DNA of 38,176 bases from Chloroflexota bacterium. Lineage in GTDB: Bacteria; Chloroflexota; Anaerolineae; Epilineales; SHYO01. The notes beneath the pieces were generated by a model, which made no database searches, was not told the origin of the DNA, and saw only the letters and a list, made by a program, of their open reading frames with translations. The stretch's first letter is position 1. Every line of letters begins with the position of its first letter. Shown here piece by piece: positions 19,824-30,119 of this stretch. The translations under genes and the position numbers were made by a program. The DNA lies in the NCBI GenBank assembly GCA_009692745.1, contig SHYO01000019.1:1-38176 (forward strand), given 5' to 3'.

Positions 19824-21056
19824 ATGGAACATCGTGTAATCTTTAAAGACCCGGCGCATTATGCCTCATTTCCCCGCGTGCGGCGCATGCGCAATGGTGA
19901 ATTGCTGTTGGCCTACTATGACCAGTCCGATGAAGTTCGCGCCCAGCATCCCAACATCCATCCCCACTACCAGTTTGGCTCTCACGTCGTCGTGCAACGC
20001 TCGCGGGACGAGGGGCAAAGCTGGCAGCGCTCCCTGGTGGATGAGTGGCCGGCAGAGTGGCGCCAATCGGATATCATCCACCTCCAGCCGGGGGAGCCCT
20101 ACCGCGAACCGGACGCTCCCGATTGGCAATCGGCCGCCGAATTGGAGGACGGCACGATCATCCACTCAGCGGGCAGCCTGTTGTGGCACCGCGATCCTGA
20201 ACGGCTGCGCTTGCCGCCGGAGATCGCCGATCCACCAGTGGCCACACCCGACGGTTGGTATCGCACCTACATTCATGGATTGGTAGCTCGCTGCCGTTTT
20301 GTAGATGGCCGTTGGCACAAAGAGTTATCGTCGCTCAAAGTGCCGCCTTATACCTGGCCCCACTGGGGTTGGTGCGCTCCACGGCGCATGCCGGATGGCT
20401 CCCTGGTAGCGATTATGTTGGGCAAGCACCCGGAATACCCGGAGCGCCAGCCGGGCACTATTTTTGCCGCCCGCTCTACAGATAACGGCATGACCTGGGC
20501 CGCCCAGGGAATTATCTCTCCCCACAATTTCCAGGGGACCGCGCCCCAATCGGGGGATCCTGCTGTTCAAGGGAGCGCCGCCTTGCCCTACACCTGGTCC
20601 CTTTGCGATGAAGTGACCATGGCCCTCACTCCCGGTGGCAAGTTGGTCAGCGTGCATCGCACCGAGGGCGAGCCGGACACACTCTGGCCGCTGGTCTGGC
20701 ATGTGGAAGGCTTTGTCCATCAGGCAGATTCGCTGGATTTGGGCCAGACCTGGCAACCGGCCCATAAAACGCCGATGTGGGGCCACCCGGCCCATCTGCT
20801 GCTGCTGGACAACGGTCTGCTGGTTTGCGTCTTCGGCTACCGGCGCGCGCCCTTTGGCATCCATGCTTGCATCAGTTACGACGAGGGGCAGACCTGGGAT
20901 TATGAAAACGTGCGCATCCTGCGCTCCGATGGCGCCGTCAGGGACCTGGGGTATCCTAACTCGGTCCAACTGAAAGACGGGCGCATCTACACCACCTACT
21001 ATTTCACCAAGTCAGACGGCATCCGCCATATCGCAGCGACGGTATGGTCCGTCTAA
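19824..21056 (+). CDS. Sialidase-like BNR/Asp-box propeller protein (group D)
   Basis: This 410-residue propeller has four Asp boxes: S-R-D-E-G-Q-S-W, S-T-D-N-G-M-T-W, S-L-D-L-G-Q-T-W and S-Y-D-E-G-Q-T-W. The N-terminal blade reads S-F-P-R-V-R-R-M, so again aromatic-Pro replaces R-I-P, although an Arg follows immediately and might take over. It is rich in His and Trp around residues 160-200. There is no signal peptide. TAGGAG lies 8 bases before the ATG, and the gene begins 29 bases after the third glycosidase-like gene. It is the last propeller of the locus. Confidence 0.82.
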   Translation: MEHRVIFKDPAHYASFPRVRRMRNGELLLAYYDQSDEVRAQHPNIHPHYQFGSHVVVQRSRDEGQSWQRSLVDEWPAEWRQSDIIHLQPGEPYREPDAPDWQSAAELEDGTIIHSAGSLLWHRDPERLRLPPEIADPPVATPDGWYRTYIHGLVARCRFVDGRWHKELSSLKVPPYTWPHWGWCAPRRMPDGSLVAIMLGKHPEYPERQPGTIFAARSTDNGMTWAAQGIISPHNFQGTAPQSGDPAVQGSAALPYTWSLCDEVTMALTPGGKLVSVHRTEGEPDTLWPLVWHVEGFVHQADSLDLGQTWQPAHKTPMWGHPAHLLLLDNGLLVCVFGYRRAPFGIHACISYDEGQTWDYENVRILRSDGAVRDLGYPNSVQLKDGRIYTTYYFTKSDGIRHIAATVWSV

Positions 21057-21157
21057 CTAAGGGCCCAAAGAATGCAAAGGGCCACTAGCTTGTTCCTTTT
21101 CCTGCCCAAAAAGCTATCCTGTTTGCTTCCATTTAAGAAGGAAGGACAACATCTGTC

Positions 21158-22072
21158 ATGCGTCTCGTAACTTGCAGATACCGCGCTGAAGCATTTTTAG
21201 GTCTGAGGATCGGCGATCAAATTGTACACCTGGCCGAAGCCATGGAGCGCAGCGGCGCCACCAGCGTTTACTCCGAAATGCTCGACTTTCTTAGCGCCGG
21301 TGACACAGGTATGCAGGCCCTGAACCGGGCCTTCGCCTGGCTGCACACCGGCAATAATTTCGAGCAACTGACGCACTACCCGGTGCAGGAGGTGGATTAT
21401 CTGCCTCCCATTCCCAACCCCTCCAAAATCGTGGCCATCGGCCTCAACTATATGGACCACTGCCGCGAGCAGAATATCGCCCCCCCGGTTGAACCCCTGA
21501 TCTTCGCCAAGTTCCCCTCCGCTTTGATCGGCGCGGGCGACGAGATCCGCTGGGACCCCGGCCTGACGCAAAAGGTCGATTACGAAGCGGAATTGGCCGT
21601 CATCATCGGTCGCCAGGGGTACCGCATCCCCGCCAGCCAGGCGTTCGACTATGTCGCCGGTTACACCTGCGCCAACGACGTCTCCGCCCGCGATCTGCAA
21701 TTCGGCGATAAGCAATGGGTGCGCGGCAAATCCCTCGACACCTTCTGTCCCCTGGGGCCGGAGCTGGTCACGCGCGATGAAGTGCCCGATCCCCACAATC
21801 TCAGCATCCGCTGCCTGGTCAACGGCCAGGCGTTGCAAGACTCCAACACCCGCGAGCTGATCCACAAGATCCCGGCCTTGATCGCCCACGCCAGCCGTTC
21901 TTTCACCCTCTACCCTGGGGACGTGATCCTCACCGGTACGCCCGACGGCGTCGGCGCTTTCCGCAAACCGGAAATCTACCTGAAGCCCGGCGATGATGTG
22001 CTGGTGGAAATCCAGGGCATCGGCCAACTGCGCAACCGCACCGGCCAACCTATTGAGGAGTTTGCGCAGTAG
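21158..22072 (+). CDS. Fumarylacetoacetate hydrolase (FAH) family protein
   Basis: This 304-residue enzyme belongs to the FAH family, which hydrolyses or decarboxylates 2-keto acids in aromatic and sugar-acid breakdown. Metal ligands are visible as E143 and E145 (D-Y-E-A-E-L-A-V) and D174 (N-D-V-S-A-R-D), with the catalytic-loop histidine at H101 (G-L-N-Y-M-D-H). The C-terminal L-T-G-T-P-D-G-V-G loop is canonical. As the last gene of a glycan locus it most plausibly acts on a 2,4-diketo-3-deoxy sugar acid, as in L-rhamnonate or L-fuconate pathways; that is inference. GGAAGG lies about 12 bases before the ATG. Confidence 0.92.
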   Translation: MRLVTCRYRAEAFLGLRIGDQIVHLAEAMERSGATSVYSEMLDFLSAGDTGMQALNRAFAWLHTGNNFEQLTHYPVQEVDYLPPIPNPSKIVAIGLNYMDHCREQNIAPPVEPLIFAKFPSALIGAGDEIRWDPGLTQKVDYEAELAVIIGRQGYRIPASQAFDYVAGYTCANDVSARDLQFGDKQWVRGKSLDTFCPLGPELVTRDEVPDPHNLSIRCLVNGQALQDSNTRELIHKIPALIAHASRSFTLYPGDVILTGTPDGVGAFRKPEIYLKPGDDVLVEIQGIGQLRNRTGQPIEEFAQ

Positions 22073-22081
22073 AGTGGGAGG

Positions 22082-22172
22082 CTGTCAACGGATTTGGGGA
22101 ACGGATTGAACGGATTAGCCCCGCCGCGCGACCACCATTCCGTTCAATCCGTGGTCAGAAATCCGTTGACAG
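22082..22172. repeat. Single copy of the 124-bp-array palindrome
   Basis: This 91-base imperfect palindrome begins CTGTCAACGGATTT and ends with its exact 14-base reverse complement minus flanks (AATCCGTTGACAG type end). Internal arms carry ACGGATTGAACGGA and TTCCGTTCAATCCGT. Short GGGAGG/CCTCCC flanks extend the pairing. The same palindrome is the core of the tandem array at 22681-23833. It fills the gap between the FAH gene and the GxxExxY gene. Confidence 0.88.
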
Positions 22173-22209
22173 TACCTCCCAATCAACTCAACCCATCCGG
22201 AGCAGTGTT

Positions 22210-22674
22210 ATGGCAGACAAAAGTATCGTTACACCCCAGGATCCGGTGACGTTCAAAATCATTGGCTGCGCCATGGCCGCCCACCGCCAGCTTGGGCCGG
22301 GACTGCGGGAAGATACTTACCAACGAGATCTGGAAGCGCGCTTGGGCGAGGTGGGGCTAGCCTGTGAAGCTCAAAAGCTGCTGGAGGTCTATGATGAGAG
22401 TGCAGGGCACGTGCTGCTGGGCTATTATATCCCCGATTTCATGGTGGCCGAACAGGTGATTGTGGAGATCAAAGCGCTCAGCGGCCTGGACAACAGCCAC
22501 ATGGCACAGATTATCGGCTATATGGCCGTGACGGGATACCCGGTAGGGTTGTTGATCAACTTTGGCGCTCGCAGCCTGCAATGGCGCCGTATCTTCCCAC
22601 CCAAGAAAATAACCGAGCATAAAGTGAACCGTCAATGGCTCTTTGTGCCCGATTGGCTGAAAGGGAGCACGTAA
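22210..22674 (+). CDS. GxxExxY family protein (PD-(D/E)XK-like)
   Basis: This 154-residue protein has the defining motif as G-L-R-E-D-T-Y (near residues 31-37), followed by the nuclease-like core: P-D-F in Y-I-P-D-F-M and V-I-V-E-I-K-A-L, the D...E-x-K of the PD-(D/E)XK superfamily. The length fits the family, whose members are small and of unproven function. It is unusual in being flanked closely on both sides by copies of one palindromic repeat: the single copy ends 38 bases upstream and the array starts 7 bases after its stop codon. The ribosome binding site is a modest CGGAG. A role in DNA processing at these repeats is possible but unproven. Confidence 0.88.
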   Translation: MADKSIVTPQDPVTFKIIGCAMAAHRQLGPGLREDTYQRDLEARLGEVGLACEAQKLLEVYDESAGHVLLGYYIPDFMVAEQVIVEIKALSGLDNSHMAQIIGYMAVTGYPVGLLINFGARSLQWRRIFPPKKITEHKVNRQWLFVPDWLKGST

Positions 22675-22680
22675 AGGAAG

Positions 22681-23833
22681 CTGTCAACTTGGTACAGAAC
22701 TGTTGTCAGCTATCCTCCCCCAGTACCATTCACTTTAGGGACAATACTGTCAACGGATTTTTAAGAACGGATTGAACGGATTCGCCTCACCGCGCGCCAA
22801 CTAATCCGTATAATCCGCTCCCGAATCCGTTGTCAGCTATCCTCCCCCATACCATTCACTTTAGGGACAGAACTGTCAACGGATTTTTTTAGAACGGATT
22901 AAACGGATTCGCCCCACCGGGCGCCAACCAATCCGTTCAATCCGTTCCCTGAATCCGTTGTCAGCTATCCTCCCCCATACCATTCACTTTAGGGACAGAA
23001 CTGTCAGCGGATTTTTAGAACGGATTGAACGGATTCGCCCCACCACGCGCCAACTAATCTGTTTAATCCGCTCCCGAATCCGTTGTCAGCTATCCTCCCC
23101 CATACCATTCGCTTTGGTACAGAACTGTCAGCGGATTTTTAGAACGGATTGAACGGATTCGCCTCACCGCGCGCCAACTAATCCGTTTAATCCGCTCCCG
23201 AATCCGTTGTCAGCTCTCTCCCCCATACCATTCGCTTTGGTACAGAACTGTCAGCGGATTTTTAGAACGGATTGAACGGATTCGCCTCACCGCGCGCCAA
23301 CCAATCCGTTCAATCCGCTCCCAGAATCCGTTGTCAGCTCTCTCCCCCATACCATTCGCTTTGGTACAGAACTGTCAGCGGATTTTTAGAACGGATTGAA
23401 CAGATTCGCCTCACCGCGCGCCAACTAATCCGTTTAATCCGCTCCCCAATCCGTTGTCAGCTCTCTCCCCCATACCATTCGCTTTGGTACAGAACTGTCA
23501 GCGGATTTTTAGAACGGATTGAACGGATTCGCCTCGCCGCGCGCCAACCAATCCGTTCAATCCGTGCCCCAATCCGTTGTCAGCTCTCTCCCCCATACCA
23601 TTCACTTTAGGGACAGAACTGTCAGCGGATTTTTAGAACGGATTGAACGGATTCGCCCCACCACGCGCCAACTAATCCGTTTAATCCGCTCCCCGAATCC
23701 GTTGTCAGCTCTCTCCCCCATACCGTTCGCTTTGGCAGAGAACTGTCAACGAATTATTAGACCGGATTCCGCGGATGAGCCACTCCGCGCCCGCAACCAA
23801 TCCGTTCAATCCGTTCCCCGAATCCGTTGACAG
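22681..23833. repeat. Tandem array of about nine 124-bp palindromic units
   Basis: Unit starts (CTGTCA[A/G]CGGATT) occur at 22747, 22873, 23001, 23125, 23248, 23372, 23495, 23619 and 23743, spaced 123-128 bases apart, after a degenerate start at 22681. Each unit holds an approximately 90-base palindrome with CTGTCAACGGATT-like ends and inner GAACGGATTGAACGGATT paired with AATCCG-TTTAATCCG. A conserved ~35-base linker (CTCTCCCCCATACCATTC...) follows. Linkers come in two flavours: a TTTAGGGACAG form at the edges and a TTTGGTACAG form in the middle. This pattern suggests expansion by unequal exchange from the middle. No gene is present. It stops 1 base before the avd stop codon. Confidence 0.95.
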
Positions 23834-23834
23834 C

Positions 23835-24098
23835 TCATATCGCCCAGCGCACGGCCAGGCGTAAATACAACCTGACCTTATTCAGCGCCTCGTCCGCCAG
23901 GCCCAACTGCTGGCGCCGGGCGCTGCCTTTGCGCAGGTTGGCCTCTTCCAGCCGCTCGCGCAAATCAAAGGCCGCGTCCAGCAGGCATTGGGTGAAGGTA
24001 TGCCGCTGCGCCCGCGGGAAATGGTTGGTGGCCGGCAGCAGCCATGTCAGAAAATCATACGTGCGGGTAAATATCGGCATCTCCGCCTGGTTTGCCAT
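23835..24098 (-). CDS. avd: Avd-like four-helix-bundle protein of a diversity-generating retroelement, probably truncated
   Basis: This 87-residue protein resembles DGR accessory variability determinant (bAvd), which binds reverse transcriptase and template RNA during mutagenic retrohoming. Recognisable stretches are F-T-R-T-Y-D-F-L-T-W-L-L (helix 1), N-H-F-P-R-A-Q-R (the conserved F-P-R-x-x-R turn), D-L-R-E-R-L-E-E-A-N (helix 2) and L-N-K-V-R-L-Y-L-R-L-A (helix 3). Full-length relatives are, from memory, about 110-125 residues, so the last helix seems lost. The stop codon lies 1 base from the tandem repeat array, which probably replaced the 3' end. It is downstream of, and co-directional with, the variable protein gene. 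Upstream AAGGAGCGCTC gives a good Shine-Dalgarno. Confidence 0.75.
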   Translation of the reverse strand: MANQAEMPIFTRTYDFLTWLLPATNHFPRAQRHTFTQCLLDAAFDLRERLEEANLRKGSARRQQLGLADEALNKVRLYLRLAVRWAI

Positions 24099-24167
24099 GA
24101 GCGCTCCTTTCTATGCTCGGCTTTCTATCCCATCCATGCATCTTATCAGAATTCAGAATATCAGAGT

Positions 24168-24199
24168 ACCAGAGGCCAGAGGGACCAGAGGTCAGAGGT
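24168..24199. repeat. 16-bp tandem repeat at the 3' end of the variable protein gene
   Basis: ACCAGAGGCCAGAGGG (24168-24183) and ACCAGAGGTCAGAGGT (24184-24199) are adjacent copies with two differences. The second covers the stop codon and the last two codons of the NACHT-FGE gene. Degenerate CAGAAT/CAGAG units continue to the left. It lies just downstream of the variable region, where DGRs often have structured DNA that helps retrohoming; a link is speculative. Confidence 0.6.
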
Positions 24200-27100
24200 A
24201 TGGGAACAGCACCACGCGAAACCCGAAAATGTAGTCCCAGCGGCGCGGATTGAAGAAGCTGCGGTAGGCGCAGCGCACGTGCCTATCACCATCGAGGAAC
24301 GCCCCGCCCCGCAGCACCCGGCGTTCCTCTGGCCCAGCAGCAGGATCTTCCCTTTTTTGCCTTCCGGCGGCATCCGCCGGATATGGATATTTATCCCATA
24401 AGCTGCGCGTCCACTCCCACACATTCCCGCTCAGTTCCTCCACTCCGTAGGGACTGGCTCCCCCGGGAAAGCAACCTATCGCGCTCGTATCACCGATACC
24501 AGTATCACTGTAATTCGCCCGGTTCGGGTCCGGCGCGTCACCCCAGGGATATTTCCGCTGCGGGTTGGCATTGGGCTGCCGCGCCGCATCCCCGGACAAC
24601 ACCAGGCCGGTCGATACCTGGCGGGTAACCGGCGGCGCCGGCACTTCCAGCCCACCCCGCACTGCCTTCTCCCACTCCGCCTCGCTGCACAGGTACACGC
24701 CCCAGCGCGGCGCCAGTGCTCCCTGCTGCCGCAGCCACTCCGCCAGCCAGCGGCTGAAAGCCAGCGCCTCGTACCAGGTGACGCCCACCACCGGGTGGTT
24801 CGCCAGGTTATAGGGTTCCCCGTAATCGTAAGCCGCCGTGCGTCCGGTCTCGTCATTGTACGCCTTTACCACCCCATCTGTCCATACACCGGCGGCTTGC
24901 GCTTCCGGCCAATACTGTGGCCGCGCGTAACCGCCGGCCTGGACGAAAGCCCTGTACTGGGCATTGGTCACCGGGTAACGGCCGATCCAATAGCTATATG
25001 GGATCTCTACCGGGTGCTGCGGCTTTTCATCTTTGTACGCCACCTCATCTTTGTCGGAACTCCCCATCATAAACGACCCGGCCGGCACATAGCAGAATTC
25101 CATCCCCTCCAGGGTCGTGGCCTGCGGGCGCGGGTCGCCCAGGCGGGCCAGGGTTCGCCCGGCGGCGGCGCGCTCCAGGGCGGGCAGCGTATCACCTCGC
25201 ATGATCTGCTGCTGCCAATCGATCACCCGGTCAACTTTGGGCTGGTTTTGCGGGCTGATGCGGGACAGGTCGGCGGTCTCGACCAGCGCCTGGCCGGCCA
25301 ACAAAGCTCCCCAACAGCCAGGCAGTGTCACGCGCCCGCCTTCCGGTTCGGTATAGCACAGGGCCTCGGCTAATGTCCAGATCAGGCTGGCTGAGCCACG
25401 TACTGATTTAGCCCCGGCCAGTAAAACCGCTTCCCGCCAGCGGTTGGGATCGGCGCAGGCAAGCTGCGCGATTTTATCCGGGAAATCGTGATCGGTCAGG
25501 TAGCAGGCGGCCAGATACTCCTGAAAGGTACGGTGGGGAAAGGTATAAACACTCACACCATGCGGCAGCAATAAACCGGCCCGCTGGCTGAGGTAATCCA
25601 CCAGTTGCGCCGGATTGACCGCGCGGTTCTGGCTTAGATGCATTAATCCGGCCACGATCTGCCCTTCCGCGATATCGGCGGCGCCGTTCAGGTCCGGCTG
25701 GCCGGCATGCGCCTGGAAGGCCAGCTCGTTGAGCAAACCGCGCACCTGCCCCCGATCCACCTTTAGCCATTCCACCAGGCTGGGCTGCATCATGGCGATA
25801 TTCCCCTGGGCATCGTGTACCACCCGCTGGCTTTCCCAGGCATAGAGCAGCAGATCCACCGCATCGGCGTAGAGTTCTTCACGCTTTTCCGGCAAACTCC
25901 CGCCGCGCCAGGCGTGCAGGCTGGCCATTAAGGTCAATAGCAAGGGGCGCTCAGCCAGAGATTGGAGCCGGTCGCTGGAAAAAATGGCGCGCTTCAGCAA
26001 CTCAGCCCGCCCCAGGGCATCCTCAAGTTGCATTTTGCGCAAACCGGCAATATGGGTATACCAACGCTCTACAAATTGGCGGATTTGCCCTGGGCTGAAG
26101 GGCGCCAGAGTTGCCTCGGCAAATTCGGGTAAGCGCCACTCTTGCTTCTGGTAAGCATACGTCCGGCTGGTCACCACCACCCGGCAGCGGTAAAAGGTGC
26201 CGGCAAAGCCTTCCACCACCTGTTTGATTTGGGTGCGGCGCTGGCCGGCTTCGGGCACTTCATCCAGCCCGTCCAGCAGGATGAGACCTCCCTGTTCCAT
26301 AAGTTCACGGCGCATCAGGGGTGCATAATCCGCCAGGCTGGCTGCCTGCAATTCCGCTTCAATAAAGCGCCATAAATGTTCGGCGGTAGCTTCCTGGTCC
26401 GGCGGAGGCAGTTCGCGCGCGGCGAAATCCCGCAAGATAATCCGCACTGGCAGGAGCGTGGCATGGGACCAGGGTTGGCGCTCCTTTTGCTTTTCATCCT
26501 GCTTTTCGCCGGCGCTGTCGCCTGGGAGGGGCGCTGTCAGCAGCTCCAGGTTGGCTTCAGAGCGGCCCAGCATCTCCCCCGCCATACAGAGGGCCACAAA
26601 ATTGACAAAGGTGCTCTTCCCGCTGCCCGGGTCTCCCAGCAGCACCAGGTGACGCTGCCGGTCCATTTGCTCCAGGGCGGAGAGGTAACGCGCCTCTGAT
26701 GGCAGAGACAGGCCACGCGCTGCAGCGTCCCGTTCTTCGGGTGTCCCGGTCAGTAAAGCCGTATAGACCGCATTGAGGTGCAGGTGGGCTTTCGGATCGC
26801 CTGCCACTTCGGGGTCTATGCCGGACAGTGTGAGACGATGGACTTTTCCGAAAAGCTGGTTGAGGTAAGCAGCGCGCAGAGTACTCTGAGCGATATGCGG
26901 CAGGATGCGCAGCTCCTGCAGCATCGCATCCAGGTAGGCGGTGTTCACCCAGGGCAATTTGCCGGATTGGCGCCGGATACTTTCCGCATAAGCCTGCAGG
27001 AAGGCGCGCAGCCCGGCCGCGAATTCCAGCCCCTGGTAATCCGTCGGGTGCTGCTTTACGGGGGGCATTTCCCAGAAAAGCCGCTCCAGCTTAGCAATAT

Positions 27101-27458
27101 CCACCACCGTGGCGGGATCTTGCGGCACGTTGGCCAGGGTGACCAGTTTGGCCATCTCGGTCACCACCTCGGGCGTCTCGGTCAGGAATTTGCCCAGGGT
27201 TTTTCCATACCGGGCCAGCCACTCTTGCGCCTGGCGGTCGTGGGCGGCAGCCAGGGCGGGCGCCAGCGCCGGAACCATCGCCCTGATGCCGGCGGCCAGG
27301 GCCTTTTGCAGAGCCTCGCGCTGCTCCTTATCGCCTTCGATGGCCCGCCCAATACGCCCCGGCAGCTCATCGACAACCAGCTTATCCAAGAGCTTTTTAG
27401 CTATCTCGATCGTCCAGGGGCTTATGATTGCCAGAATGATTGTAAACGGGTCTGCCAT
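24192..27458 (-). CDS. NACHT-type STAND NTPase fused to a formylglycine-generating-enzyme (C-type lectin fold) domain; DGR variable protein
   Basis: This 1088-residue protein has three parts. Residues 1 to ~270 are helical and may be the signalling or effector end. Residues ~270-480 form a NACHT NTPase with Walker A G-D-P-G-S-G-K-S-T (275-283) and Walker B L-L-D-G-L-D-E (394-400), followed by a helical region to ~780. Residues ~785-1088 are an FGE-sulfatase/CLec domain (M-E-F-C-Y-V-P-A-G-S-F-M-M-G, W-Y-E-A-L-A-F, L-S-G-N-V-W-E-W-T, R-V-L-R-G-G). Its extreme C-terminus is a DGR variable region. It is probably a cytoplasmic sensor whose lectin-fold domain binds a changing ligand and triggers NTPase-driven oligomerisation, possibly in defence or self-recognition. 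ATG follows GGGAGG. Confidence 0.93.
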   Translation of the reverse strand: MADPFTIILAIISPWTIEIAKKLLDKLVVDELPGRIGRAIEGDKEQREALQKALAAGIRAMVPALAPALAAAHDRQAQEWLARYGKTLGKFLTETPEVVTEMAKLVTLANVPQDPATVVDIAKLERLFWEMPPVKQHPTDYQGLEFAAGLRAFLQAYAESIRRQSGKLPWVNTAYLDAMLQELRILPHIAQSTLRAAYLNQLFGKVHRLTLSGIDPEVAGDPKAHLHLNAVYTALLTGTPEERDAAARGLSLPSEARYLSALEQMDRQRHLVLLGDPGSGKSTFVNFVALCMAGEMLGRSEANLELLTAPLPGDSAGEKQDEKQKERQPWSHATLLPVRIILRDFAARELPPPDQEATAEHLWRFIEAELQAASLADYAPLMRRELMEQGGLILLDGLDEVPEAGQRRTQIKQVVEGFAGTFYRCRVVVTSRTYAYQKQEWRLPEFAEATLAPFSPGQIRQFVERWYTHIAGLRKMQLEDALGRAELLKRAIFSSDRLQSLAERPLLLTLMASLHAWRGGSLPEKREELYADAVDLLLYAWESQRVVHDAQGNIAMMQPSLVEWLKVDRGQVRGLLNELAFQAHAGQPDLNGAADIAEGQIVAGLMHLSQNRAVNPAQLVDYLSQRAGLLLPHGVSVYTFPHRTFQEYLAACYLTDHDFPDKIAQLACADPNRWREAVLLAGAKSVRGSASLIWTLAEALCYTEPEGGRVTLPGCWGALLAGQALVETADLSRISPQNQPKVDRVIDWQQQIMRGDTLPALERAAAGRTLARLGDPRPQATTLEGMEFCYVPAGSFMMGSSDKDEVAYKDEKPQHPVEIPYSYWIGRYPVTNAQYRAFVQAGGYARPQYWPEAQAAGVWTDGVVKAYNDETGRTAAYDYGEPYNLANHPVVGVTWYEALAFSRWLAEWLRQQGALAPRWGVYLCSEAEWEKAVRGGLEVPAPPVTRQVSTGLVLSGDAARQPNANPQRKYPWGDAPDPNRANYSDTGIGDTSAIGCFPGGASPYGVEELSGNVWEWTRSLWDKYPYPADAAGRQKREDPAAGPEERRVLRGGAFLDGDRHVRCAYRSFFNPRRWDYIFGFRVVLFPYL
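24210..24317 (-). other. DGR variable region (VR) of the NACHT-FGE gene
   Basis: The last ~36 codons before the tail (residues 1048-1083) match the variable loop of DGR-diversified FGE/CLec proteins. Invariant scaffold residues R-G-G, V-R, A-Y-R, P-R and G-F-R-V-V are kept. The positions between them, normally AAC or AAT codons in the template, here read F, L, D, D, H, C, S, F, F, N, R, W, D, Y, F. Their codons (TTC, CTC, GAT, CAC, TGC, AGC, CGC, TAC, etc.) nearly all end in C or T, as expected when only the first two bases, adenines in the template, are mutated. No template repeat was found in the window. Confidence 0.8.
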
Positions 27459-27549
27459 GATTACCTCCCTGCCACTATGGATTTCGTTGGGGGTTGTTAC
27501 ATATGATGAGATGGAAGTCAGGGCGCGCCAAACACAACGGCTCGAACCC

Positions 27550-27963
27550 TCACCCCGCCTTCAACCGCTGGTAGCACCCTTCCCACGTCTCTGACGAGCG
27601 CATTAGCTTATTGATAGTGATATCGGTAAAGCGAGGCGCCAGCCGGGCCAGCATGGGGGGCAGATCCTGCCACCGCTCCTCCCGCACCACCCGTTCCAGG
27701 TCGGCGGCGGCTTTGGCGGCCCATTCCCACTCCATGCGAAACCGGTCGGCCTTCAAGAAGTAATTGCGCTTCTCCCAGGCCGTCGCGGATTGGTCCACCC
27801 CTTCCAGAATTTCCCGCAGGCAAAAGACAATCAACGCCGCCAGGTCTTTGACTTCGTCATCCAGAGAGCGTTTCGCCATCAGGCGATTTAAGGTTTCGGC
27901 AATCGTGCGGCGCAGTTGATTGCGGGTGTTAGCGGTCTTCTCTATGGCGATGACACGTCCCAA
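27550..27963 (-). CDS. Small helical hypothetical protein upstream of the NACHT-FGE gene
   Basis: This 137-residue protein is not one I can name. It is strongly charged and almost entirely alpha-helical in pattern, with blocks N-Q-L-R-R-T-I-A-E-T-L-N-R-L, D-L-A-A-L-I-V-F-C-L-R-E-I and W-E-W-A-A-K-A-A-A-D-L-E. It starts at TTG (27963), 8 bases after AAGGAG, and no in-frame ATG gives a sensible protein. It ends 91 bases before the NACHT-FGE gene on the same strand, so the three genes helical protein, NACHT-FGE and avd probably form one operon. A role as adaptor or partner of the NTPase is a guess from context. Confidence 0.75.
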   Translation of the reverse strand: MGRVIAIEKTANTRNQLRRTIAETLNRLMAKRSLDDEVKDLAALIVFCLREILEGVDQSATAWEKRNYFLKADRFRMEWEWAAKAAADLERVVREERWQDLPPMLARLAPRFTDITINKLMRSSETWEGCYQRLKAG

Positions 27964-28028
27964 GGTGCTTTGCTCCTTCTATAATACGGAAATGTTAGAT
28001 GACGTTGTCGATTTCCCTCTTCAACCTG

Positions 28029-28871
28029 TTAATACAGCAACCACTCCAGGCGCGAACGGTAGGTTTGGGTCAATTCGTGCTCAGACCCCAAAATTTCAAA
28101 CACGCGCAGCATCGCCTTGCGACCGGCGTCGTTCTCAAATTTACGATTCAACCTGACTACTTCCAGTAACTCTTCCAGGGCCTCTGCATACGCCCCGCGG
28201 GCGGCCAGGCGTATCCCCAGGGCATAATGGGCTGCCACATGCTGCGGATTCTGCGCCAGCGCCGCTCGCGCTTCAGCTTCAGACGGCCGGGTCGCGCCAT
28301 CCTGGGCCAGCTCAATCCGAGCGCGCAGCGCAGAGACACGGGAAAATTGCGGCGTAGTATACGGTACGCTATGCAACATTTGCAATGCATCCGCATATCG
28401 TTCCTGGGCCAAAAGCACTTCCGCCATACCTAGCAGCGCCTGCCCGTTATCCGGCTCGGCATCTAACACCTGGGTAAAAAGCGCGGCGGCGCTATCGACA
28501 TCCCCGGCAGCGACCAGCGCCTGGGCCTGCTGCAGCAGCGGCGCGGCCGCGGAAGGTTGGATACGCTTTATGAACTCACGCACTTGTGGCTCGGGCAATG
28601 CGCCTACAAATTCATCCACCACCTGCCCGTCGCGGAAGGCTTTCACCGCCGGAATGCCCATCACATTATATTCCATCGCCAGGCGTTGGTTGTCATCTAC
28701 GTTGACTTTGACCAGCTCAAACTTGCCGCCGGCATCCTGCGATAGGCGCTCTAACGTCGGACCCAAGATGCGGCATGGGCCACACCAGGGCGCCCAGAAA
28801 TCCACCAACACCGGCAGATCATATGAGCGGCGGATGACATCCTCTGCAAAAGTCGTTTCTGTAACATCCAT
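28029..28871 (-). CDS. cnoX: Thioredoxin-TPR protein, CnoX/YbbN-type co-chaperedoxin
   Basis: This 280-residue protein joins a thioredoxin domain (residues 1-105) with the redox motif W29-C-G-P-C33 to a helical TPR region (residues ~110-280; A-E-P-D-N-G-Q-A-L-L-G-M-A, Q-H-V-A-A-H-Y-A-L-G). This is the build of CnoX (YbbN), a holdase that protects clients from oxidation and hands them to DnaK/DnaJ or GroEL. In E. coli YbbN the motif is S-x-x-C and inactive, whereas this copy keeps both cysteines and may be redox-active. It sits downstream of the hrcA-grpE-dnaK-dnaJ genes on the same strand, though a 513-bp repeat patch separates it from rsmE, so it probably has its own promoter. The Shine-Dalgarno is weak. 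Confidence 0.88.
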   Translation of the reverse strand: MDVTETTFAEDVIRRSYDLPVLVDFWAPWCGPCRILGPTLERLSQDAGGKFELVKVNVDDNQRLAMEYNVMGIPAVKAFRDGQVVDEFVGALPEPQVREFIKRIQPSAAAPLLQQAQALVAAGDVDSAAALFTQVLDAEPDNGQALLGMAEVLLAQERYADALQMLHSVPYTTPQFSRVSALRARIELAQDGATRPSEAEARAALAQNPQHVAAHYALGIRLAARGAYAEALEELLEVVRLNRKFENDAGRKAMLRVFEILGSEHELTQTYRSRLEWLLY

Positions 28872-28913
28872 ATCTAACCCCGTATTTCACTTTGTAATCT
28901 GATAGATTGACTA

Positions 28914-29125
28914 CTGGACTGTCCAGTATGATTTGATGGATGGTAGTCTAGCCCCTTGTGATTCTGTAGGTTTTCGGTTATTTCCCCACTAGATACGGGA
29001 AAATGGACCGAAGCAGACACAGCCCCTAGTAGTATAAAGGGCGTTTTCCTACAGAATCCCTTGTGGGCGTTGGGACGGGCACAAGGCCCTAGACTACCTA
29101 TCAACTCAGATGTGCCAGTCCACTA
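28914..29125. mobile_element. MITE-like hairpin element (copy 2), interrupted by another element
   Basis: The core arms GGTAGTCTAG (28942-28951) and CTAGACTACC (29089-29098) are perfect inverted repeats, followed inward by CCTTGTG and CACAAGG after a 2-base mismatch, exactly as in the copy at 4206-4257 but in the opposite orientation. The inner stretch GGCGTTGGGACGGG also matches copy 1 with one difference. Left-flank similarity extends to about 28926. A second element is inserted at 28961-29057. No gene overlaps it. Confidence 0.8.
28961..29057. mobile_element. 97-bp MITE-like insertion with 8-bp target-site duplication
   Basis: The insert begins ATTCTGTAGG and ends CCTACAGAAT, 10-base perfect terminal inverted repeats. 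It is bounded by direct copies of CCCTTGTG (28953-28960 and 29058-29065). Removing the insert and one copy of the 8-mer restores an uninterrupted outer element matching copy 1 at 4206-4257, so the insertion is well supported. Inside, TTCGGT and ACCGAA, with TTTCCC and GGGAAA, form a hairpin. It has no coding capacity and must have been moved in trans. Confidence 0.85.
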
Positions 29126-29330
29126 CCGCTATGTCAACGATGGTTTGACTATCTGGCGCACGGGCGCGGCGACCGCGCCCCTACCTGGCTGCTACGGTTC
29201 CAATAATATCCCTATTCTCACGCTGCCGCAAGCGGGCCTCTACCGGCGGGCAGGCTCATTTGCCCGACAAAGCATTTGCCCGGCGGGTATTACACTTTGA
29301 GTGAGGTTACCTATTAATTCCGGCTATCCC
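29126..29330. other. Non-coding patch of short palindromes between the MITE and rsmE
   Basis: No gene is supported here. The patch contains a GC-rich hairpin GGGCGCGG-cga-CCGCGCCC (29162-29180) and a smaller stem CGGGCA/TGCCCG (29247-29252 with 29261-29266), followed by a third TGCCC-GGCGGG tract near 29277-29287. It continues the repeat-rich character of 28914-29125 and appears to be a landing zone for small mobile palindromes. Confidence 0.6.
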
Positions 29331-29354
29331 GTAGGTGCGGTTTTCAACCGCACG
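29331..29354. repeat. REP-like palindromic repeat (copy 3)
   Basis: GTAGGTGCGG followed by TTTTCAACCGCACG is the same 24-base unit as at 9134-9157 with a single base change in the loop. It lies 30 bases beyond the rsmE stop codon and may serve as a 3' RNA hairpin for that transcript. Confidence 0.85.
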
Positions 29355-29384
29355 GTCGTGCTGCGTCGAGCGAGCCGCACGAAC

Positions 29385-30119
29385 TCAGAGGTCGCTAAAC
29401 TCCTGTAGGATACTCGAGGCGGCCAGCAGACCGGCGACTGCGGCCGGCGGCCAGCGTCGCCCCAAGGTTACCGGATGCACGCCATAGCGCTGCGCCCGGG
29501 CAATCTCATCGAGGGTAAACTCTTCCGGCGGCCCCCCCATCACAATAATACTGAAGGGCCGGGGTCGTAGGGCCCGCACATACGGCAATAGCGCTGGACT
29601 CTCCGTAGCCAGCAGCAGCGCCAGGCCGCTGCGGGTGACATCGGCGCAGGCCGTTTCAAAGAGCACTGCCGGGCGAATCTGGGGTAGGCGCGCCCGGCCG
29701 GCCGCTGCTGCGGCCTCCAGAATGATGGTATTCCAGAAAGCCAGGCGCTCATCCTGCAACATCTGCATGGCGCCCAACTCGGTACGTTCAGTGATCATCG
29801 GCACGAATTCTACCACCCCCAGAGCAGTGCCGTAGCGCAGCAGGTGCTCGAACTCATCTGCTGGTAAAAGCCCTTGGTATAAGGATATTTTGGTGCGCGG
29901 TTCGGCCGCAGAGAGCGCCCGGCGCAACAACTTGCAGCGCACTTCGGCATCCGCCATCTGCTGGATAATAACGGTATACTCCCAGCCCGAGTTATCACAC
30001 AGCACTAACGTCTGGCCTACCTCTAACCCACGCTGGTACACCTGGTCGGCCAGGAGAGAGGGCAAAGGGAATTCCGTGGGACGTACAACGCTGGATGGGA
30101 CAAAAAATCGGGGTGGCAA
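29385..30119 (-). CDS. rsmE: 16S rRNA m3U1498 methyltransferase RsmE (divergent)
   Basis: RsmE methylates U1498 of 16S rRNA using SAM through a C-terminal SPOUT knot. I start the 244-residue protein at TTG (30119), because GGGAGGAGG lies just upstream and the resulting P-P-R-F-F-V-P is the standard RsmE N-terminus; an ATG 27 codons earlier adds an atypical leader. The PUA-like N-terminal domain and the A-L-G-V-V-E-F-V-P...T-E-R-T segment are recognisable. However, the usual G-P-E-G-G-F motif reads G-G-P-P-E-E-F, and L-G-x-R-I-L-R-x-E-T-A reads L-G-R-R-W-P-P-A-A-V-A. The SAM site is therefore altered, and activity is uncertain. Position after prmA matches the Bacillus-type gene order. Confidence 0.8.
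   Translation of the reverse strand: MPPRFFVPSSVVRPTEFPLPSLLADQVYQRGLEVGQTLVLCDNSGWEYTVIIQQMADAEVRCKLLRRALSAAEPRTKISLYQGLLPADEFEHLLRYGTALGVVEFVPMITERTELGAMQMLQDERLAFWNTIILEAAAAAGRARLPQIRPAVLFETACADVTRSGLALLLATESPALLPYVRALRPRPFSIIVMGGPPEEFTLDEIARAQRYGVHPVTLGRRWPPAAVAGLLAASSILQEFSDL

Follow-up and report, generated by a model that had tools for sequence, protein, structure and literature searches.

The window analysed here is a 38,176-nt stretch of DNA (contig SHYO01000019.1, positions 1 to 38,176) from the Chloroflexota assembly GCA_009692745.1, and its central feature is a gene whose product joins a NACHT NTPase to a C-terminal FGE/CLec domain. The first-pass annotation, made from the sequence of the window, had proposed that the end of this protein is diversified by a diversity-generating retroelement (DGR), and the gene is treated below as the putative target of such a system. 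The gene and its parts are as follows.

24192..27458, minus strand: NACHT-FGE protein, the DGR target, 1088 aa (open reading frame (ORF) and domain search)
26055..26651, minus strand: NACHT domain, residues 270-468 (Pfam PF05729, E 4.8e-10)
24210..25097, minus strand: FGE/CLec (FGE-sulfatase) domain, residues 788-1083 (PF03781, E 1.3e-45, and structure model)
24210..24320, minus strand: variable repeat (VR), 37 codons (residues 1047-1083), 18 of them variable (four-copy comparison and foreign templates)

The Pfam matches bore out the NACHT domain and the C-terminal FGE/CLec domain that had been assigned to this ORF. A structure prediction of the C-terminal domain, recommended in the same annotation, returned an FGE fold: the last 309 residues were modelled with a mean pLDDT (predicted local distance difference test) of 81.7 from 21 sequences, and the closest solved structures were FGE-fold proteins, including EgtB and formylglycine-generating enzymes. 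The predicted CLec/FGE fold of the C-terminus is therefore sound, and the model's secondary structure places 11 of the 18 variable residues in neither a helix nor a strand. The model of residues 1-779, covering the N-terminus and the NACHT domain, was unusable (pLDDT 46.6), and the helical N-terminus named in the annotation is still an impression; Pfam and NCBIfam recognised no effector domain before NACHT. A search of 60 genomes, that of the window included, matched the protein in 47, in some of them over nearly its full length, and the best named relatives belong to metagenome-assembled genomes (MAGs) of Chloroflexi (L083, 62% over residues 214-504), Actinomycetota and, in two cases, gammaproteobacteria. 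NACHT-CLec targets of DGRs are moreover already present in Dore 2024 (PMC10907252; here and below, the accessible part of that text), and DGR-linked FGS domains have been described as well (PMC7159879, accessible part). The suggestion that the domain order may be new thus does not stand.

When the 3' end of the gene was compared with its own genome (4.37 Mb in 223 contigs, 83% complete), three further copies were found, two on contig C61 (C61a and C61b) and one on C17, all in NACHT-FGE genes. The four VRs align without gaps across the 37 codons, and nearly all of the variation affects either positions 1 and 2 of codons whose last base is C or T, or position 1 of NGG codons. The variable codons are 1055-1060, 1065, 1067-1070 and 1072-1078; the annotation had guessed, without a template, fifteen positions, and it is 18 codons that vary. 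A third base of C or T is found in 16 of the 18, compared to a background of 48%, and from codon 8 to codon 33 all the non-variable bases are identical among the four copies. Between the window and C61b the VRs differ at 13, 11 and 0 sites at codon positions 1, 2 and 3, whereas the 218 codons upstream in the same domain show 68, 62 and 114 differences. The chance of finding 0/37 third-position differences here is about 1.3e-12, assuming independent sites, and these two VRs must therefore have been overwritten recently. C61a and C17 gave the same picture, with 14, 10 and 0 differences in the VR as compared to 21, 29 and 36 in the 201 codons upstream (chance of 0/37 about 7e-4). Ordinary diversifying selection, or gene conversion among paralogs, would require no DGR, and the C-terminal loops of FGE domains do vary among homologs in general; neither process, however, freezes third positions while 24 first and second positions differ, nor does either place the variation on the adenines of templates from other genomes, as described next. 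This explanation is practically excluded.

The genome's own template was not seen, and the adenine columns were deduced from the four VRs and then checked on six foreign templates. A scan of 34 loci for pairs of template repeat (TR) and VR, that is, gap-free pairs with differences on A of one copy, yielded convincing pairs in nine (L081, L134, L135, L136, L137, L139, L144, L151 and L152); three pairs in L082 and one of three in L135 resemble other repeats and were rejected. The foreign templates were aligned to the VRs of this genome through the columns invariant among the latter. In the L139 template an A occupied 27/33 of the variable columns vs 5/78 of the invariant ones, and in that of L137 26/33 vs 3/77. 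The other four had A at 20 to 24 of the 33 variable columns, and in all six the invariant columns held A at 3 to 11 of 77-78 positions (the register of L152 is probably off by an indel). Since the variable columns coincide with A in foreign templates, we conclude from these comparisons that the diversification of the window gene is real and adenine-templated, as the annotation had held. The substitution pattern shows that mutagenic retrohoming, drawing on an adenine-rich family of templates, has rewritten the C-terminal CLec face of four or more of the NACHT-FGE receptors encoded here. Four variable columns are not of the adenine type; they lie two on each flank and split C17 and C61a from the window and C61b, and the four VRs may have had one template or two.

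Among four other FGE-like genes of the same genome (L023-L026), two have a loop as long as that of the window gene but depart from it at 21 and 19 of 33 third positions; the remaining two were not comparable. Three NACHT-FGE genes of genome G013 differ pairwise at 16, 6 and 16 of 33 third positions, which implies that no single template is shared there. In addition, an intergenic fragment on C61 (L021, 3187-3224) carries 18 bases identical to the window VR, followed by the codon-like continuation TAC CGC TAC TGG GAC GAT; by its sequence it looks like a stray VR piece from a related template.

Downstream of the target gene lie the following features.

23835..24098, minus strand: truncated Avd (accessory variability determinant), 87 aa, about 29 C-terminal residues short (NF033474, bAvd and identity to G044)
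22702..23836, no strand: array of about nine palindromic 124-bp units resembling miniature inverted-repeat transposable elements (MITEs), with the ends CTGTCAACGGATT / AATCCGTTGACAG (repeat comparison)
22082..22172, no strand: solitary copy of the palindromic element of the array (repeat comparison and folding)

The Avd remnant matched NF033474 at E 4.2e-14 (52.7 bits, cut-off 80, profile positions 1-76 of 104) and bAvd at E 7.3e-7 (30.1 bits, cut-off 40), and it was the only bAvd match in its genome. It is 75% and 73% identical to the Avd proteins of two cassettes in genome G044, which are 116 residues long. The gene order in these cassettes is Avd-TR-RT (L150, where the template was identified by eye), RT being the reverse transcriptase, and VR-Avd-TR-RT (L151). 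The array occupies the site where the G044 cassettes carry the last part of Avd together with template and RT, and its first palindromic repeat starts within a couple of bases of the Avd stop codon. Folding gave z -4.3 for one array unit and z -5.7 for the solitary copy. A gene for a PD-(D/E)XK_3 family protein (22210-22674, plus strand) flanks the array. The cassette beside the window gene was probably once VR - Avd - template - RT, as in G044, and the MITE-like array would have taken the place of template, RT and the final part of Avd; the truncation and the array are seen directly, and the order of events would follow from them. In Thiohalocapsa, RT or template of DGR loci have been replaced by MITE-like arrays (Dore 2024, PMC10907252), and because of that report the replacement here looks, by analogy, like the same process in another lineage.

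It could be asked whether the array junction represents just one strain or one choice of the assembler, with intact VR-Avd-TR-RT variants coexisting in the population, given that intact and MITE- or transposon-degraded DGR variants are known to coexist (Dore 2024, PMC10907252). The contig, however, continues through the array into a normal gene beyond, and the 18-bp core of the palindrome (at most one mismatch) is also present on six other contigs (C197, C26, C50, C105, C123 and C146). We therefore consider this improbable. The same end sequence follows the core in the three of these six contigs that were inspected, and with the patterns used the tandem arrangement was found in the window alone.

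Several results weigh against an active system. No RVT_1 match over the cut-off was found in the 83%-complete assembly, where weak matches were at E 0.09 (C192) and E 0.24 (C190). Of 14 control genomes, 3 exceeded the cut-off in the same search, and 19 did so in a set of 60 that included the window's genome, any kind of RT being counted. A DGR RT protein query gave 0 matches in the assembly, a weak negative on its own, and no template repeat was found in it with the inferred template sequence to E 10. None of the ten loci of this genome (the window represented by 20001-30000) gave a TR/VR pair. Searches with the inferred template and with degenerate patterns recovered only the four VRs, the C61 fragment and chance-like matches, and the VR pattern had 0 matches in viral contigs. 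The window locus, without template or RT, is not a complete DGR cassette, and neither of the two components that the annotation had proposed to look for in the full genome was found in this assembly; relatives, on the other hand, do carry template, Avd and RT beside the same kind of gene, so that the refutation set out in the annotation does not apply.

These absences, together with the truncated Avd, are what would be expected if the DGR were dead in this lineage, RT and template having been lost genome-wide and the four VRs being recent fossils. The lack of any third-position difference between the VRs of the window and C61b, vs 52% upstream, would nevertheless require very recent copying, and the assembly is just 83% complete and split into 223 contigs. 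A dead system is thus rather unlikely in our view. As the local machinery is gone, the template and RT behind this copying must lie elsewhere or have been lost very recently. Rewriting would now be supplied in trans by a template and RT missing from the assembly, or would recently have ceased; we favour supply in trans, either from the missing part of the genome or from a coexisting strain. Diversification in trans has a precedent in Dore 2024 (PMC10907252).

The related NACHT-FGE or FGE cassettes (L134, L135, L136, L137, L139, L151 and L152) share with the window the kind of target domain, a homologous Avd and adenine templates, but unlike the window they hold template and RT beside the VR. 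In L144 (genome G018), a NACHT-FGE gene has a VR and a template, with no DGR RT match within 8 kb; the sole RVT_1 match of G018 at E 1e-5 comes from another contig and shares 25% identity with the DGR RT query. L144 is perhaps another locus without its RT. The region following ten templates showed no simple shared structure in an alignment. On visual inspection, a CAAATA motif and GC-rich hairpins recur after the templates of L144, L151, L135 and L137, perhaps a structured RNA that recruits the RT. Rfam gave 0 matches at the gathering threshold in the window and C61.

The similarity to the clade 5D systems of Dore 2024 (PMC10907252) extends further. Their STAND/NACHT-CLec targets likewise have a central NACHT, a C-terminal CLec/FGE domain with the VR and an N-terminal extension without a known domain, and the systems also have several targets per genome, diversification in trans and MITE-like arrays in place of RT or template. 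In contrast to the loci described there, the present one belongs to a different lineage, its Avd is truncated by the array as well, and RT and template are both unassembled.

A further feature was found directly after the VR.

24146..24196, minus strand: TCTG repeat tract of 7 copies spaced by about 7-8 nt, located immediately 3' of the VR and running across the stop codon (sequence count)

The tract is a run of TCTG(A/G) at 7-8 nt and is present at the window gene, its three sisters and relatives. Across the 4.37 Mb of the genome, the triple TCTGR pattern was matched 9 times, some of the matches overlapping, and every match sits immediately 3' of one of the four VRs; the reversed pattern was matched once. 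Even with the RT missing, the tract was a specific marker of DGR targets in this genome. Within 100 nt, TCTG occurs 2-7 times after ten confirmed cellular VRs and 0-1 times after their templates, the VR being higher in 10/10, and 17 FGE gene ends (L084-L102), merely presumed to be non-DGR, have 0-1 each. Counts at all ORF ends (50/472 with at least four TCTG) were not used as a background, since loci represented by several overlapping copies contaminate them. As an independent test set we used 29 DGR loci of IMG/VR viral contigs, of which 24 gave TR/VR pairs and the 5 without a pair were dropped. The mean number of TCTG within 100 nt was 2.79 after the VR vs 0.08 after the TR (23 pairs greater, 0 less, 1 tie), and TCTG had the highest mean count among the 256 tetramers. 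Distances between CTG cores within 60 nt of the viral VRs peaked at 7-8 (56 pairs), 14-16 (35) and 22-24 nt (17), compared to 3 pairs in total after the templates. Cyanobacterial VRs have another core in the same place: 10 of 11 carry at least two CTTT, and likewise CCCT, with CTTT mostly spaced at 7-8 nt. Among 11 named phages (BPP-1 and ten chosen from 40 listed entries) its occurrence is patchy: BalMu-1 and FP_Lagaffe have a clear TCTG tract, and CTG/TTG variants occur in Vibrio, Pseudoalteromonas, Aeromonas and Bordetella phages. By eye, CTG/TTG-type repeats at about 8 nt were seen in 7 of the 11, VHML and VP58.5 being near-identical there.

A number of observations speak against this tract or weaken the case for it. 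The ten cellular pairs are where the idea arose and are not independent. Among the viral VRs, that of L194 is followed by CTG repeats but by no TCTG and that of L189 by a single TCTG, and at eight plasmid loci the VRs of Prosthecochloris and Moritella have 0 and that of Ideonella 3. At least three TCTG were counted in 18 of 48 FGE gene ends, and the other 30 include VR-like NACHT-FGE genes with 0-1 (L034, L035, L040 and L049); the confirmed VR in L136 has just 2. In the named phages, when counted within 60 nt, TCTG was more frequent behind the VR than behind the TR in 3 and less frequent in 1 (BPP-1), while 7 had none behind either, and by eye no such repeats occur in crAss cr53_1, FP_Brigit, Shewanella QDWS and Bacteroides Versailles.

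In the proposal outlined below, the tract would stand between the end of the VR/TR homology and the hairpin. A GC hairpin or cruciform after the VR is common in the DGR literature and not strictly required; in the portion of Guo 2011 (PMC3240598) available to us it lies 4-34 bp after the VR, and no repeat tract is described. A GC hairpin follows the VR at C61a, C61b and C17. The window VR has no perfect stem of at least 6 bp with a loop of 3-6 nt within 170 nt, a point against the explanation favoured here. The DGR of Bordetella phage BPP-1 resembles the window in having its VR at the 3' end of the target gene, followed there by a small gene, the template and the RT. Its target is a phage tail protein, unlike the NACHT-FGE protein, and its VR is directly followed by a GC hairpin and only a partial CTG/TTG motif; at the window gene the TCTG tract is long and the hairpin is absent.

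The tract is also present at targets without a downstream Avd (C61a, C61b and C17), and a role confined to avd expression is therefore unlikely. Cruciforms and homing sites have been suggested as cis features possibly involved in remote targeting in a cyanobacterial study (PMC7517822, accessible part). Our tentative proposal, to which we give somewhat less than even chances, is that a series of (T)CTG cores, repeated every 7-8 nt immediately 3' of the VR and absent after templates, constitutes an undescribed DGR cis element, with another core (CCCTTT-type) of the same period in cyanobacteria. Such an element would distinguish recipient from donor and let one RT and template rewrite dispersed VRs in trans, and the row of cores may load a multimeric factor such as an Avd-RT complex. 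The tract after each VR would here be a candidate target-side address. We found no description of a repeat tract after the VR in the literature covered (supplements and subscription papers were outside its scope); where checked, the string TCTG occurred there as entries in an oligo table and an assay probe, and it is not in the main text of Dore 2024 (PMC10907252) as far as that was accessible. The tract may thus be new as a recognised element.

The receptor role of the protein is inferred by analogy, from its NACHT/sensor architecture, published proposals and the sister target on C17 (L022, 2543-5116), which has the effector-associated domain EAD10 at its N-terminus; the latter also means that N-termini differ among targets sharing one VR type. 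Avs and bacterial NACHT antiphage proteins likewise combine a NACHT NTPase with a C-terminal sensor, and the window protein had a sub-threshold match to NCBIfam EruA (34 bits, cut-off 1000). Unlike them, it has a CLec sensor and no recognised effector domain, and PADLOC gave no match, which counts against a defence role. So does the neighbourhood: the eight neighbouring ORFs (PDDEXK_3, FAA hydrolase, thioredoxin-TPR, RNA methyltransferase, PrmA, DnaJ, the Avd remnant and one matchless) include no obvious defence gene.

The largely housekeeping neighbours and the lack of a recognised effector domain before NACHT would suit a diversified domain serving something other than invader sensing, such as self/non-self recognition or the binding of a nutrient or surface ligand. 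The combination of NACHT and a C-terminal sensor, however, matches the antiviral STAND layout (Dore 2024, PMC10907252), and a sister target bears EAD10; we find such other roles doubtful. By analogy with bacterial NACHT and Avs proteins, it is moderately probable that the variable face would sense an invader ligand and the NACHT domain would signal defence.

Taken as a whole, the explanation that we hold to be highly probable is that of four rewritten receptors, a decayed cassette, supply in trans or a recent stop, the tract as address and the sensing of invaders. A single genome holds an NLR-like set of at least four receptors rewritten from one template family, with one adjoining cassette decayed by MITE-like repeats as in Thiohalocapsa. 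The (T)CTG tract provides a concrete and testable candidate for how DGRs may find remote targets. If this explanation is true, the loss of local machinery and the reliance on diversification in trans would be a recurrent route.

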